Origin: Pantoea eucalypti
GTDB taxonomy: Bacteria > Pseudomonadota > Gammaproteobacteria > Enterobacterales > Enterobacteriaceae
Length of the DNA stretch: 64,000 nucleotides
Assembly: GCF_009646115.1 (NCBI RefSeq)
Contig: NZ_CP045720.1
Coordinates: forward strand, 3,596,001 to 3,660,000
Direction of reading: 5' to 3'
Shown: in pieces, positions 20,957-45,944 of the stretch
How positions within the stretch are numbered: position 1 is the stretch's first letter
Layout: each line of letters opens with the position of its first letter
Made by a program: the position numbers and the translations under genes
The notes under the pieces: model-generated
Databases searched by the model: none
What the model was told of the DNA's origin: nothing
The model's input: the letters and a program-made list of their open reading frames with translations, nothing else

Positions 20957-21176
20957 CGTCAAACTCTTCAGGTAAGCAGAAAAAGAAATCCCGGAACATG
21001 CGGAATGCGGCAGTGTGAACCGGCTGAGGCGAGCAAAAAAACGCCAGGGTTCACGGCGGCCATTATCGGTGAAAGCCGACGCGCCTTTCTATTGGCAAAC
21101 TGTCAGGGTTTCGTTAAGAACGATGATGATTTAACGGCGGTTATACAGCGGGGAAGAGAGCGTCCGGCGAGCAGGC
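20957..21176. other. intergenic region upstream of the efflux operon
   Basis: About 220 bp between the first efflux gene and the 3' end of the nearer Omr-family sRNA. No convincing open frame is present. The promoter of the efflux operon must lie here or come from read-through of the sRNA terminator. I could not identify a clear -35/-10 pair or a BaeR-type box by eye. Confidence 0.4.
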
Positions 21177-21268
21177 AAAAAAAACCCACGCATCTGCGTG
21201 GGTTGGTGTAATAACAGGGATCTCACTGCCGAAGCGGTGTTGTTTTCACACCCATCAATACCTCTGGG
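21177..21268 (-). ncRNA. omrA/B: OmrA/OmrB-family small RNA (copy 1, 92 nt)
   Basis: The minus strand reads CCCAGAGGTATTGATGGGTG at its 5' end, the conserved base-pairing region of OmrA/OmrB. It ends in ACACCAACC followed by a GC-rich terminator stem (ACCCACGCAGATGCGTGGGT) and eight T residues. E. coli OmrA and OmrB are Hfq-dependent, OmpR-activated regulators of outer-membrane and curli/flagellar genes and are also encoded between aas and galR. The middle part contains a small UUCG-loop hairpin and differs from the second copy, as in the E. coli pair, where only the two ends are conserved. Confidence 0.92.
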
Positions 21269-21310
21269 ACTGCTATCCTCGCACTGATTGACCGCGCGGG
21301 GACAGCGAGA

Positions 21311-21339
21311 AAACGCAACCGAATTCGGGGAAGTGCAAC
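21311..21339 (-). promoter_or_regulatory. putative OmpR-like direct repeats upstream of Omr copy 1
   Basis: Minus-strand boxes GTTGCGTTT (21311-21319) and GTTGCACTT (21331-21339) lie 20 bp apart. Their distances from the sRNA start (43 and 63 bases) are identical to those of matching boxes before copy 2. Two-turn spacing and the GTTRCA-like core fit tandem OmpR half-sites. OmpR control is known for E. coli omrA/B; binding here is inferred. Confidence 0.6.
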
Positions 21340-21382
21340 GAGGTGTGAATATCTTTCACGTCTCGCTTACACTCTGATTCCA

Positions 21383-23122
21383 CTAAGATTTATCCGAAGT
21401 ATTGGTCGCCGGTTTCGTGTAAATGGCATCTGGCGCAATGTTCATGTGTTTCAGCACCGGCCCCATAATATTACCGAACACTGGTGCGGCAACCGAGCCA
21501 CCGAAGTGATCGCCTGCCGTTGGATGGTTGATCATCACCACCAGCGCCACTTCAGGATGGCTGGCTGGCGCAATACCGGCGGTGTAGTTGACGTAGCCGC
21601 CATCATACTTGCCGCTGGTGCCCATTTTTTCCGCCGTACCGGTTTTGGTCGCCAGACGATAACCCGGCACCGCGGCTTTCAGCCCGGTTCCGCCCGGCAG
21701 GACGTCACTCTCCAGCATATGCACCACCTCTTTCACCGTTTCCGGGTTGGCAACCTGCCGCCCCATGACCGGTGGCGTAACGCGTGTGATTGACAGCGGA
21801 CGGTAAACGCCATAAGAGCCGAGTGTGGCGTATTCACGGGCAATCTGCAGCGGCGTGACACGCAGGCCGTAGCCAAAGGAGAAAGTGGCCCGCTCGATAT
21901 CGGCCCAGCGGGTACGGTGCAGCGGGAAGTAGCCGACGCTTTCGCCGGTCAGCCCTAATCCGGTGGGTTTACCCAAGCCAAACGCCTGATAGGTATTCAC
22001 CAGCGCTTCCGCAGGCATCGCCAGCGCGAGGTGTGATACGCCAATGTCACTCGATTTTTGCAGAATGCCCGTCATGGTCAGGCGCGGCCAGTGACCGACG
22101 TCGCGGATCAGGTGGCCGTTCACGCTATAAGGCGTGGTATCGATGACGGAATCCGGGCGCACCAGGTGGCGCTCCAGCGCCTCCATGACCACTAACGGCT
22201 TAACAGTCGATCCCGGCTCATAACTGTCATTGATGGCCGAGTTACGCATCTGCGCCGGAGTCGCCCCTTCGTAGTTATTAGGGTTGAACGACGGATAGGA
22301 GGCCATCGCCAGAATCTCGCCGGTGTCAATTTTCACCAGCACGGCGGCGCCTGAATCCGCCTTGTTGATCAGCACGCCGTCACGCAGTTTGCTGTAGAGC
22401 GTGTACTGGTCATATTTGTCGATGCTGAGCTGCACCGTTGGCGGCTGAGTCGGCGGCTGATAGTTGATCATGGCGATGATATTGCCCGCCGCATCCTGAC
22501 GATAGACCTCTTTGCCAGGCTCGCCCTGCAACACTTTATCAAAGCCTTTTTCCAGGCCATTAAGACCCACGTTATCCGCACCTACAATGCCGAGCAGCGG
22601 CGCAGAGGCCTCGCTCATCGGATAGAAACGGCTGTCGTCGTAGACTTCGCTGATGCCTTTCAGCTTCAGTTCTTTAATATCTTTCGCGATGCCCAGTTCA
22701 ACTTTACGGCCCAGATAGAGGAAGCGACGTTTCGGGTTAGCAGTGATCTGCGCCGCCAGCTCTTCAGGACGGGTGTTAAGCGCCGCCGCAAGATAGGCCC
22801 ATTTAGCGCTGGTGAAATCGGGGTTACTCTCAAGCACTCGCTGCGGATCGGCAATGACATCGCGCGATGGCACGCTAAGCGCCAGCGCTTCACCGTTACG
22901 ATCCAGCAGGGTACCGCGGCTGGTCGGCAGCGTGACGGTACGCAGCGATCGCTGATCGGCTTCGTGCTCCAGCATCGGCTGATTCAGGAACTGCAGGTCC
23001 GCGACGCGCGCCAGCAGCACCACCAGACAGGTCGTGACACCCAGGCAGATCAGCCGAAAACGAAAAGGGTTAAATGGCGCTTTTATCTGGTCTTTTCCCA
23101 GTAGTTTTTTAATCCGGGGCAT
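21383..23122 (-). CDS. FtsI-like class B penicillin-binding protein (accessory peptidoglycan transpeptidase)
   Basis: A 579-residue bitopic inner-membrane transpeptidase closely related to FtsI/PBP3. A short cytoplasmic N-terminus is followed by a TM helix (about 22-42), a PBP dimer domain (SRGTLLDRNGEALA at 68-81) and the transpeptidase domain. Catalytic motifs fall at FtsI-like positions: STVK (305-308), KTGT (493-496) and SSD (357-359), where E. coli FtsI has SSN. The essential ftsI normally lies in the mra/dcw cluster, so this is probably a second copy, comparable in concept to the Salmonella PBP3-SAL. It is flanked by the two Omr sRNAs, all on the minus strand. Confidence 0.9.
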   Translation of the reverse strand: MPRIKKLLGKDQIKAPFNPFRFRLICLGVTTCLVVLLARVADLQFLNQPMLEHEADQRSLRTVTLPTSRGTLLDRNGEALALSVPSRDVIADPQRVLESNPDFTSAKWAYLAAALNTRPEELAAQITANPKRRFLYLGRKVELGIAKDIKELKLKGISEVYDDSRFYPMSEASAPLLGIVGADNVGLNGLEKGFDKVLQGEPGKEVYRQDAAGNIIAMINYQPPTQPPTVQLSIDKYDQYTLYSKLRDGVLINKADSGAAVLVKIDTGEILAMASYPSFNPNNYEGATPAQMRNSAINDSYEPGSTVKPLVVMEALERHLVRPDSVIDTTPYSVNGHLIRDVGHWPRLTMTGILQKSSDIGVSHLALAMPAEALVNTYQAFGLGKPTGLGLTGESVGYFPLHRTRWADIERATFSFGYGLRVTPLQIAREYATLGSYGVYRPLSITRVTPPVMGRQVANPETVKEVVHMLESDVLPGGTGLKAAVPGYRLATKTGTAEKMGTSGKYDGGYVNYTAGIAPASHPEVALVVMINHPTAGDHFGGSVAAPVFGNIMGPVLKHMNIAPDAIYTKPATNTSDKS

Positions 23123-23238
23123 GGCATTCCGCTGCGCAAAATAAGAGAAAGAGGCTGGTGCCAGCAGTTATAAAGAAAGCGCTGGCTGTATAACAGGAAA
23201 ACTGTGTATCAGTTCGTTATCGGCCGCAGATTTTGGGC

Positions 23239-23314
23239 AAAAAAAACCTGCGCATCTGCGCAGGTTGGTGTAATCAAGAAAATCTATTGATGTTCACCCA
23301 TCAATACCTCTGGG
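23239..23314 (-). ncRNA. omrA/B: OmrA/OmrB-family small RNA (copy 2, 76 nt)
   Basis: The first 20 nt are identical to copy 1, and the 3' end (ATTACACCAACC plus the CCTGCGCAGATGCGCAGG terminator stem and eight T residues) matches the E. coli OmrB 3' end almost exactly. A -10-like TACATT (23321-23326) lies 6 bases before the start. It lies between the PBP gene and the BisC-like gene, pointing toward the PBP start 116 bp away. Confidence 0.93.
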
Positions 23315-23320
23315 ACCCTG

Positions 23321-23385
23321 AATGTAGCAAGAGGGATTAATCGGCTGCTATCTCTCAAACGCAACAGTTACCCGCAAAATGTAAC
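23321..23385 (-). promoter_or_regulatory. promoter and putative OmpR-like repeats upstream of Omr copy 2
   Basis: The -10 candidate TACATT is at 23321-23326 with no good -35, as expected for an activator-dependent promoter. GTTGCGTTT (23357-23365) and GTTACATTT (23377-23385) lie 43 and 63 bases from the start, the same offsets as in copy 1. GTTACA is the core of OmpR half-sites. Confidence 0.62.
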
Positions 23386-23399
23386 CAGCCATGAGATCC

Positions 23400-25863: not shown

Positions 25864-26865
25864 ATGGCTACCATAAAGGATGTTGCGCGACTGGCGGGCG
25901 TTTCTGTCGCCACAGTCTCACGTGTAATCAATAATTCTCCCAAAGCCAGCGACAGCTCCCGACAGGCCGTAGGCCAGGCGATGGAGCAGCTTCAGTATCA
26001 CCCGAATGCCAACGCACGCGCGCTGGCGCAACAATCGACCGAAACGCTCGGACTGATTGTCGGTGACGTCTCCGATCCCTTTTTTGGCGCGATGGTTAAA
26101 GCCGTGGATGAGGTGGCAGGCGATACCGGTAACTTTTTGCTGATTGGTAACGGTTACCATAATGAGCAAAAAGAGCGGCAGGCGATTGAACAGCTGATGC
26201 GTCATCGCTGCGCGGCGCTGGTGGTTCACGCCAAGAAAATTCCCGACGCAGAGCTGGAAGTGCTGATGAAGCAGGTGCCCGGTATGGTGCTGCTGAACCG
26301 GCTGATAAAAGGCTTTGAAAAGCGCTGTATTGCGCTTGACGATCGCTACGGTGCCTGGCTTGCCACCCGTCATCTGATCCAGCTCGGCCATCAGAATATC
26401 GCCTTTATCTGTTCGACCCACACCATCTCTGATGCCGAAGATCGCCTGCAGGGTTACTACGATGCGCTGAAAGAGCACGGCCTGCCGTGCAGCGACCGGC
26501 TGGTCACCTGGGGCGAACCGGATGAAGTCGGCGGTGAGCAGGCGATGACGGAACTGCTGGGGCGCGGCAGGAACTTTACCGCTGTCGCCTGTTACAACGA
26601 CTCCATGGCGGCAGGTGCACTGGCAGTGCTGAGCGATAACGGTGTTCGCGTGCCGGAAGAGATGTCACTGATCGGCTTTGATGATGTGCTGGTGTCGCGC
26701 TATGTGCGACCGCGCCTCACCACCGTCCGCTATCCGATTGTCACCATGGCGCAGCAGGCAGCCCAGCTTGCGCTGGCACTGGCTAACGATCTGCCGCTGC
26801 CAGAAGTCACCCACATGTTCAGCCCGACGCTGGTGCGTCGCCATTCAGTCAGCGGCCCGGCCTGA
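25864..26865 (+). CDS. galR: galactose operon repressor GalR
   Basis: LacI-family repressor of galactose transport and metabolism genes. The 333-residue protein begins with the helix-turn-helix MATIKDVARLAGVSVATVSRVIN, then a hinge helix (NANARALAQQ) and a periplasmic-binding-protein-like inducer domain (TLGLIVGDVSDPFFGAMV to SLIGFDDVLVSRYVRPRLTT). Position beside the Omr sRNAs reproduces the E. coli aas-omr-galR order. GalS is a close paralogue and cannot be excluded from sequence alone, but synteny favours GalR. Confidence 0.92.
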   Translation: MATIKDVARLAGVSVATVSRVINNSPKASDSSRQAVGQAMEQLQYHPNANARALAQQSTETLGLIVGDVSDPFFGAMVKAVDEVAGDTGNFLLIGNGYHNEQKERQAIEQLMRHRCAALVVHAKKIPDAELEVLMKQVPGMVLLNRLIKGFEKRCIALDDRYGAWLATRHLIQLGHQNIAFICSTHTISDAEDRLQGYYDALKEHGLPCSDRLVTWGEPDEVGGEQAMTELLGRGRNFTAVACYNDSMAAGALAVLSDNGVRVPEEMSLIGFDDVLVSRYVRPRLTTVRYPIVTMAQQAAQLALALANDLPLPEVTHMFSPTLVRRHSVSGPA

Positions 26866-45634: not shown

Positions 45635-45711
45635 AGTCAAAGTCCTTAACTTCGGGGCATGGCTATCTGTAGCCCGCCATTGATTACCAATCTTCAGCTG
45701 CATCCTCGCGA

Positions 45712-45756
45712 CTAATGACAACCCTCGACCGCCTCTGCGGTAAAGCCTCTCATTAG
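45712..45756 (-). promoter_or_regulatory. pnp leader stem-loop (RNase III target)
   Basis: On the minus strand CTAATGA...TCATTAG close a long imperfect stem with an inner ACCGC/GCGGT hairpin, about 80 nt before the TTG start. In E. coli the corresponding leader stem is cut by RNase III and then destabilised by PNPase, giving autoregulation. The arms and surrounding bases resemble that element. The rest of the 310-bp pnp-rpsO interval holds only the rpsO terminator. Confidence 0.65.
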
Positions 45757-45834
45757 CCGCGCGAAATTCTGCAAACTAAAGATCACACTAAGCAACAATA
45801 CATCAGTTTGGACCGGATTGCTGCCGATTGCTCG

Positions 45835-45859
45835 AAAAAAGGGGCCATAAAGGCCCCCT
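45835..45859 (-). terminator. rpsO terminator
   Basis: The minus-strand stem GGGGCC-TTTAT-GGCCCC is followed by TTTTTT. In E. coli a terminator in this position partly separates rpsO from pnp. Confidence 0.9.
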
Positions 45860-45944
45860 CTTCACGAAACTCGCACAAATCTGATCGTAAGCTGCACACA
45901 GTGCAAAAAACCACATAATGCCCCGACGATCAGATTTTTCAGAC

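Follow-up and report, generated by a model that had tools for sequence, protein, structure and literature searches.

In the 64,000-nt stretch of the Pantoea eucalypti genome analysed here (the window), a gene for a second FtsI-type penicillin-binding protein (PBP), ftsI2, lies between the genes of two small RNAs (sRNAs) of the OmrA/OmrB family, and the promoter of each sRNA gene matches that of its own counterpart in Escherichia coli. The account that best explains the locus as a whole, and that we consider fairly probable, is that an additional septal transpeptidase, of the acid-stress type, was inserted with its own promoter between ancestral omrB and omrA, early in the Pantoea, Erwinia, Mixta and Rosenbergiella line. 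On this account omrB, ftsI2 and omrA would be three consecutive transcription units of one strand in the window, with a promoter apiece and all probably driven by phosphorylated OmpR; one signal would call up both the two sRNAs that regulate the envelope and an alternative septum synthase. The ftsI2 mRNA would most likely end at the OmrA terminator, and read-through of the OmrB terminator would have at most a minor share in the window; in loci of the Mixta type, from which the ftsI2 promoter is gone, the PBP would be made from transcripts that start at the omrB promoter and pass the terminator. Each part is familiar, and their arrangement, a PBP gene between omrB and omrA, appears to be new: no mention of a PBP between omrA and omrB was found in the literature searched, at the level of titles, abstract openings and passages. 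The features that carry the argument are listed here in the direction of transcription.

23360..23386, minus strand: omrB promoter element GGTTACATTTTGCGGGTAACTGTTGCG, a candidate OmpR site, resembling the region upstream of E. coli omrB
about 23326-23321, minus strand: omrB -10, read by eye
23239..23314, minus strand: OmrB sRNA (copy 2 of the first-pass annotation), RF00079 75.7 bits, named by promoter orthology
23245..23266, minus strand: intrinsic terminator hairpin of OmrB, -15.5 kcal/mol, followed by the T run (T8)
23193..23212, minus strand: ftsI2 promoter box CTGATACACAGTTTTCCTGT, between the OmrB terminator and the ATG
23167..23172, minus strand: ftsI2 -10 hexamer TATAAC, 20 nt from the box
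21383..23122, minus strand: ftsI2, class B PBP of the PBP3SAL/PBP3para type by likeness, 579 aa, motifs STVK305, SSD357 and KTGT493
22054-22046, minus strand: SSD motif, ftsI2 residues 357-359, in place of the SSN active-site motif
21303..21347, minus strand: omrA promoter region CACACCTCGTTGC...GGTTGCGTTTTCTCGCTG, aligning upstream of E. coli omrA
about 21278-21273, minus strand: weak omrA -10, read by eye
21177..21268, minus strand: OmrA sRNA (copy 1 of the first-pass annotation), RF00079 69.7 bits

A covariance-model search (cmscan) with the Rfam OmrA-B model, RF00079, gave exactly two matches in the window, both above the gathering score of 40, and these were the only ones found in the 4.80-Mb genome. 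The first-pass annotation had described two minus-strand sRNAs with an identical first 20 nt and the family terminator, separated by a 1.7-kb FtsI-like gene, and each element of that description was recovered. The two copies begin with the same 20 nt, CCCAGAGGTATTGATGGGTG, and carry the conserved family 5' end CCCAGAGGTATTGAT; each ends in an intrinsic terminator made of a GC-rich hairpin followed by a long run of eight T, and the gene between them encodes a 579-aa transpeptidase on the same strand. It had also been stated that the pair is adjacent in E. coli, and this holds for K-12, where the two sRNA genes lie 114 bp apart in the order lplT-aas-omrA-omrB-galR.

The promoters distinguish the two copies. 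The 100 nt preceding the downstream copy matched E. coli omrA with a z value of 10.5 and omrB with 5.2, and the 100 nt preceding the upstream copy matched omrB with 5.7 and omrA with 3.7, as computed against mononucleotide shuffles. When nine omrA/omrB reference pairs were used for scoring, the window's upstream promoter reached 58.3 against the omrB references and 44.2 against the omrA references, and the downstream promoter 72.1 against omrA and 44.9 against omrB. An omrB-like promoter was found in 67/67 upstream copies and an omrA-like one in 44/44 downstream copies, counts in which four loci appear twice through their retained repeats (L083, L088, L095 and L096). A tree built from promoters only misplaced 1 of 139 copies, and this one came from a single-copy genome with an arbitrary label; a tree of the RNAs only separated the copies less well (6/139 misplaced), and the joint tree misplaced three. 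Judged by its promoter, the upstream copy is the orthologue of E. coli OmrB, and the downstream copy, by the same measure, that of OmrA. Because each promoter matches its own E. coli counterpart, the PBP gene appears to stand inside the ancestral omrB-omrA gap, and the simplest reading is that it entered a pre-existing pair. The sequence 3' of the PBP stop codon is, by eye, still like the E. coli stretch between omrB and the omrA promoter.

A domain search identified dimerisation and transpeptidase domains in the ftsI2 product, and the SxxK, SxN/D and KTG motifs that mark the FtsI2 group are all present. The protein shows 99% identity to PBPs of Pantoea agglomerans and further Pantoea, 52% to the canonical FtsI that is also encoded in the same genome and, among the matches listed, 60-79% to second FtsI-type proteins that other Enterobacteriaceae encode outside this neighbourhood; it groups with these last in a tree, apart from four canonical FtsI used as the outgroup. 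Its score with the NCBIfam FtsI model NF011685, 687.9 bits, falls below the curated cut-off of 737. Sixteen positions, including an N to D change at 359, were fixed in 14 canonical FtsI and in at least 97% of 93 ftsI2-type sequences, a set that includes two repeats (L117 of L061 and L124 of L051); the motif reads SSD in 93/93 of the latter and SSN in 14/14 of the former, E. coli FtsI having SSN at 359. A homologous-protein search, from which 120 of 2208 matches were listed, all 92-100% identical, was not used for conclusions. By published description the PBP would belong to the PBP3SAL/PBP3para (ftsI2) group, a placement reached with the Salmonella and Klebsiella sequences outside the comparison.

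According to passages of the Salmonella work, acidic pH is required both for PBP3SAL to promote division and for it to bind Bocillin (PMC5736910). The change from SxN to SxD would be a candidate residue for such acid-restricted activity and, being common to all ftsI2-type sequences examined, offers a concrete residue to which acid dependence might be traced. Two MrdA-type PBP2 genes are present in the genome (3007219-3009000 and 736985-738772), both over the family cut-off, and both of their products carry SAD. Ordinary MrdA works at neutral pH. SxD is for this reason unlikely to be by itself a sufficient cause of acid restriction.

The 116 nt between the OmrB T run and the ftsI2 ATG contain the box and TATAAC. 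With three mismatches allowed, the box occurs once in the 4.80 Mb of the genome; at up to four it is found in 59 of 65 loci, in 50 of these at up to two, the count of 65 excluding L051 and L092, both of which are without a box, besides repeats and frayed loci. Among the 59 box-bearing loci, the distance from the box to a TATAA(C/A/G) is exactly 20 nt in 53. Over 58 distinct segments, mean column identity reached 0.92 for the box and 0.93 for the -10 hexamer, as against 0.55 in the 25 nt upstream of the box, 0.62 in the spacer and 0.51 downstream. No recognisable -35 was seen for ftsI2, and a generic sigma-70 scan omits TATAAC; with no visible -35, the promoter looks activator-dependent. The box also precedes ftsI2 in two Kosakonia genomes: at L061 no omr 5' pattern was present within 6 kb on either side, and the contig of L044 starts 489 nt before ftsI2. 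L051, where ftsI2 has no box, is a Citrobacter locus. Since ftsI2 has a conserved promoter-like element of its own, read-through from OmrB is unneeded for its expression in the window.

As to what might activate these promoters, binding of OmpR at omrA and omrB was detected by chromatin immunoprecipitation on microarrays (ChIP-chip) in E. coli and S. Typhimurium work, according to passages of a report that also notes that characterised OmpR sites yield no good consensus (PMC3945435). PBP3SAL expression is described in part of another source as fully dependent on EnvZ/OmpR (PMC11834469), and for K. pneumoniae ftsI2 an approximately 10-fold induction at low pH is given, with genetics pointing to OmpR (PMC13251458, passages). 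An EnvZ/OmpR input common to the sRNAs and the PBP is likely on these published data, from which we infer OmpR control in Pantoea. The first-pass annotation had proposed such a shared input by way of terminator read-through: the shared input stands as likely, whereas the read-through is not needed for a PBP gene with its own conserved promoter.

In a terminator scan the minus strand showed nothing terminator-like from the ftsI2 stop codon to the OmrA hairpin, and the OmrA terminator is the first one found behind that stop codon; because no earlier site was found, the ftsI2 mRNA probably ends there. In two E. persicina loci and one of E. rhapontici (L038, L041 and L042), omrA is gone and an OmrA-type hairpin with its T run is kept shortly behind the ftsI2 stop. 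At the other end of the gene, the box and the -10 are gone from three loci named Mixta (L024, L025 and L029) and from L085, which groups with these in the PBP tree. In these Mixta-type loci only 21-22 nt separate the OmrB terminator (T8, hairpin -15.5 kcal/mol), whose hairpin is unchanged in all four, from the ftsI2 ATG. The gene is intact, and the ratio of nonsynonymous to synonymous substitution (dN/dS) among L024, L025 and L029 is 0.02-0.04, a ratio by which ftsI2 of the Mixta type is under purifying selection. Two further box losses, in L031, where 60 nt remain, and in L023, where 111 nt remain and the box is degenerate, occupy separate places in the tree, and omrB is directly upstream of ftsI2 in all six of these loci. 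Counting L092, at least four losses of the box have occurred, three with omrB upstream and the fourth without.

For the Mixta type, read-through from the omrB promoter would be the only visible route to ftsI2. It is conceivable, though we hold this tentatively and at somewhat less than even chances, that the ftsI2 of Mixta, and perhaps that of L031 and L023, now forms the second cistron of an sRNA operon driven by OmpR. Every transcript begun at omrB would become either OmrB or, past the terminator, PBP mRNA; the terminator would act as a switch between remodelling of the outer membrane and of the cell wall, and the separate-promoter state would be the one seen in the window. Work on E. coli describes the sgrS and ryhB terminators as frequently read through, with the inducing stress enhancing termination (PMC4509938). 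If OmrB behaved in the same way, stress would shift the balance from the PBP mRNA towards the sRNA, which is a difficulty for the operon.

To place the window among its relatives, loci were gathered with the window PBP as query: 57 (the window and 56 others), with 10 from further genomes making 67. Because of this sampling, locus counts describe PBP loci and not all genomes. Left out of the counts were L083, L088, L095 and L096, which have the same sequence as L025, L045, L032 and L033, and the frayed symbiont loci L055, L057 and L058; in these last, from a stink-bug symbiont and related Pantoea, ftsI2 is truncated or broken and OmrA-like sequence remains behind it, partial in L058. By the sRNA 5' pattern, the comparison of the aas-galR interval found an omr gene on both sides of the PBP in 41 of the 67 non-frayed loci, upstream only in 22 and on neither side in four. 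Rfam likewise gave a single OmrA-B match in 19 of the 22 upstream-only loci (L045 by way of its duplicate L088; L039 and L040 lay outside the check). Thus omrB is directly upstream of ftsI2 in 63/67 loci, a figure that the sampling favours. At the level of genomes, an OmrA-B match was present in 142 of 246 from the family. At least 45 ftsI2-type matches at 60% identity or more were found, and among the matches listed 15 had an omr gene beside them; of 29 others among the matches listed, 27 were either on a different contig from the listed omr matches or separated from them by more than 0.5 Mb, with no omr positions listed for G213 and G256 and one of three missing for G407. G389, G284 and G407 have four, three and three OmrA-B matches, and most other listed genomes have one or two.

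Several results weigh against the proposed insertion and its OmpR-driven promoters. Of the 63 loci with omrB retained, 22 have no omrA behind ftsI2, and L092 (G295), from a 2.7-Mb genome and the one such case among the matches listed, has ftsI2 beside galR without either omr gene and without the box. L012 is named Mixta and retains both sRNAs and the box, its PBP grouping with Pantoea. An unrelated Enterobacteriaceae genome has at L102 (570-5848) a 1104-aa NERD plus NTPase-like protein, with a weak match to Avs2, between omrB and omrA. More distant ftsI2 genes carry different upstream sequences; a promoter element common to all ftsI2 genes was rejected on this ground, and the box is claimed only for Erwiniaceae-type loci and Kosakonia. 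An OmpR matrix built from six ompF/ompC sites failed to distinguish the ftsI2 box, with 239 of 300 shuffles doing as well, and missed the window omr promoters as well as both E. coli omr controls; since the E. coli omrA and omrB controls failed, the matrix was set aside as evidence either way. Pairing of the first 45 nt of each sRNA with the ftsI2 mRNA was matched or bettered by 154 of 200 shuffles for OmrB and by 29 of 200 for OmrA. No RNA data for the locus in Pantoea turned up in the literature searched.

Other histories of the locus were weighed on the same evidence. The identical first 20 nt and similar terminators would also suit a local duplication built around the PBP gene, in which case the sRNAs would not be the E. 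coli pair; the two promoters differ, however, each matching its own counterpart, and on that comparison the duplication was rejected, with next to no probability left to it. Hitch-hiking would make the omrB-omrA gap a permissive site where ftsI2 landed by chance, with its neighbours irrelevant. The NERD-NTPase gene occupies the same gap in an unrelated genome, and the gap may therefore simply be permissive; the 27 of 29 listed matches that lie far from, or off the contig of, the omr matches, the variation of RND and BisC-like genes in the interval, and the ftsI2 of L092, without either omr gene, point the same way. Set against these are the 63 of 67 loci with omrB directly upstream, though sampling favours this, and the fact that three of the at least four box losses arose with omrB upstream (the fourth, L092, did not). 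We regard hitch-hiking as unlikely.

Two further alternatives concern transcription. In the model of the first-pass annotation, transcription from the omrB and omrA promoters that runs through the sRNA terminators would be the main source of expression for the window ftsI2 and perhaps for the efflux pump behind omrA. All genes do lie on one strand, sgrS and ryhB are frequently read through (PMC4509938), setA is thought to be fed from sgrS in the passages cited below (PMC9765468), and the Mixta-type loci show no other route; but the 116 nt before the ATG hold a unique, conserved promoter-like element that recurs in Kosakonia, and the pump has a conserved promoter block of its own and is not part of the locus in several relatives, which makes this model improbable for the window. 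It might also be supposed that OmrA is in part a product of the 3' untranslated region, processed from the ftsI2 mRNA, which would tie OmrA supply to PBP expression. The absence of a minus-strand terminator-like site before the OmrA hairpin agrees with this, as does the OmrA-type hairpin left over in E. persicina and E. rhapontici, suggesting that this transcript end has been retained; an E. coli-like omrA promoter in 44/44 downstream copies would nonetheless be unnecessary if processing were the main source, and we give the idea very little weight. Three units with separate promoters remain the preferred description of the window.

The RF00079 pair, the FtsI-type PBP and the flanking genes together make up an expanded aas-galR interval, as follows from the gene order of E. 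coli K-12. Its remaining features are:

25864-26865, plus strand: galR, the neighbour beyond the BisC-type gene
25673-23400, minus strand: BisC-type oxidoreductase gene, between galR and omrB
21062..21120, minus strand: conserved promoter block of the RND operon, TTCTTAACGAAACCCTGAC ... GATAAT, aligned between the window and 10 other loci
20962-13432, minus strand: RND efflux operon, downstream of omrA

Beyond the RND operon are an outer-membrane-factor-like gene, aas and lplT; mdtB/C and the outer-membrane factor were labelled by resemblance, aas and lplT by match to E. coli. A neighbourhood comparison showed galR, aas or both flanking the locus in relatives, among which the RND and BisC-like genes come and go. 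In L004, L006, L017, L018 and L047, aas is directly behind omrA in place of the pump. The promoter scan matched the RND block at 21091-21062, and the reverse complement of the block (GTAA...GTTAA) recalls what we take to be a CpxR-like repeat. The earlier proposal of a link from omrA to the pump by read-through found no support, the pump being a variable neighbour with its own conserved promoter. Pairings of the two sRNAs with mdtA took shuffle ranks 6 and 22 of 200, unadjusted and in a single genome. The remaining Rfam matches of the window, SraG (45692-45862), the S15 leader (46271-46158), the rimP leader (52556-52456) and the greA leader (59607-59484), are unremarkable.

If correct, this description would place an alternative division enzyme of the OmpR-dependent type, which the sources cited describe, in the parts concerned, from animal pathogens, inside the OmpR-controlled omrA/omrB locus of mostly plant-associated genera. 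The natural series of loci that have kept or lost the ftsI2 promoter would also make the contribution of sRNA-terminator read-through to a protein gene measurable.

The window shares with the E. coli omrA-omrB pair the RNA family, strand, order, two distinct promoters and the position between aas and galR. It differs in that its gap holds a 1.7-kb PBP gene with a promoter of its own, where E. coli has 114 bp, and in having a BisC-like gene and an RND operon between galR and aas. For the Mixta type the nearest parallel is sgrS-setA: a passage of PMC9765468 puts the start of setA 27 bp past the sgrS terminator and gives read-through as the presumed source of setA transcripts; the Mixta-type sRNA terminator similarly stands 21-22 nt before the next start codon, with no promoter seen between. 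The regulator would be OmpR and not SgrR, read-through in Mixta is a prediction, and the window retains a separate ftsI2 promoter, which sets it apart from an arrangement with no promoter between. With PBP3SAL/PBP3para the window gene shares its status as a second FtsI-type class B PBP beside canonical FtsI, a separate position in the tree and SxD for SxN, a motif that the Salmonella paper writes SXN/D, and the two MrdA-type PBPs of the genome parallel PBP2SAL/PBP2para of Salmonella and Klebsiella. The surroundings differ, as PBP3SAL (STM1836) is given in a passage of PMC5736910 as lying between rrmA and cspC and the window gene lies between omrB and omrA. The window-type locus, moreover, occurs in mostly plant-associated genera. 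The same paper states, in the part concerned, that PBP3SAL has no orthologues in non-pathogens (PMC5736910), and claims that such paralogues are described only in pathogens, or are absent from non-pathogens, do not fit the mostly plant-associated genera in which ftsI2 is found.

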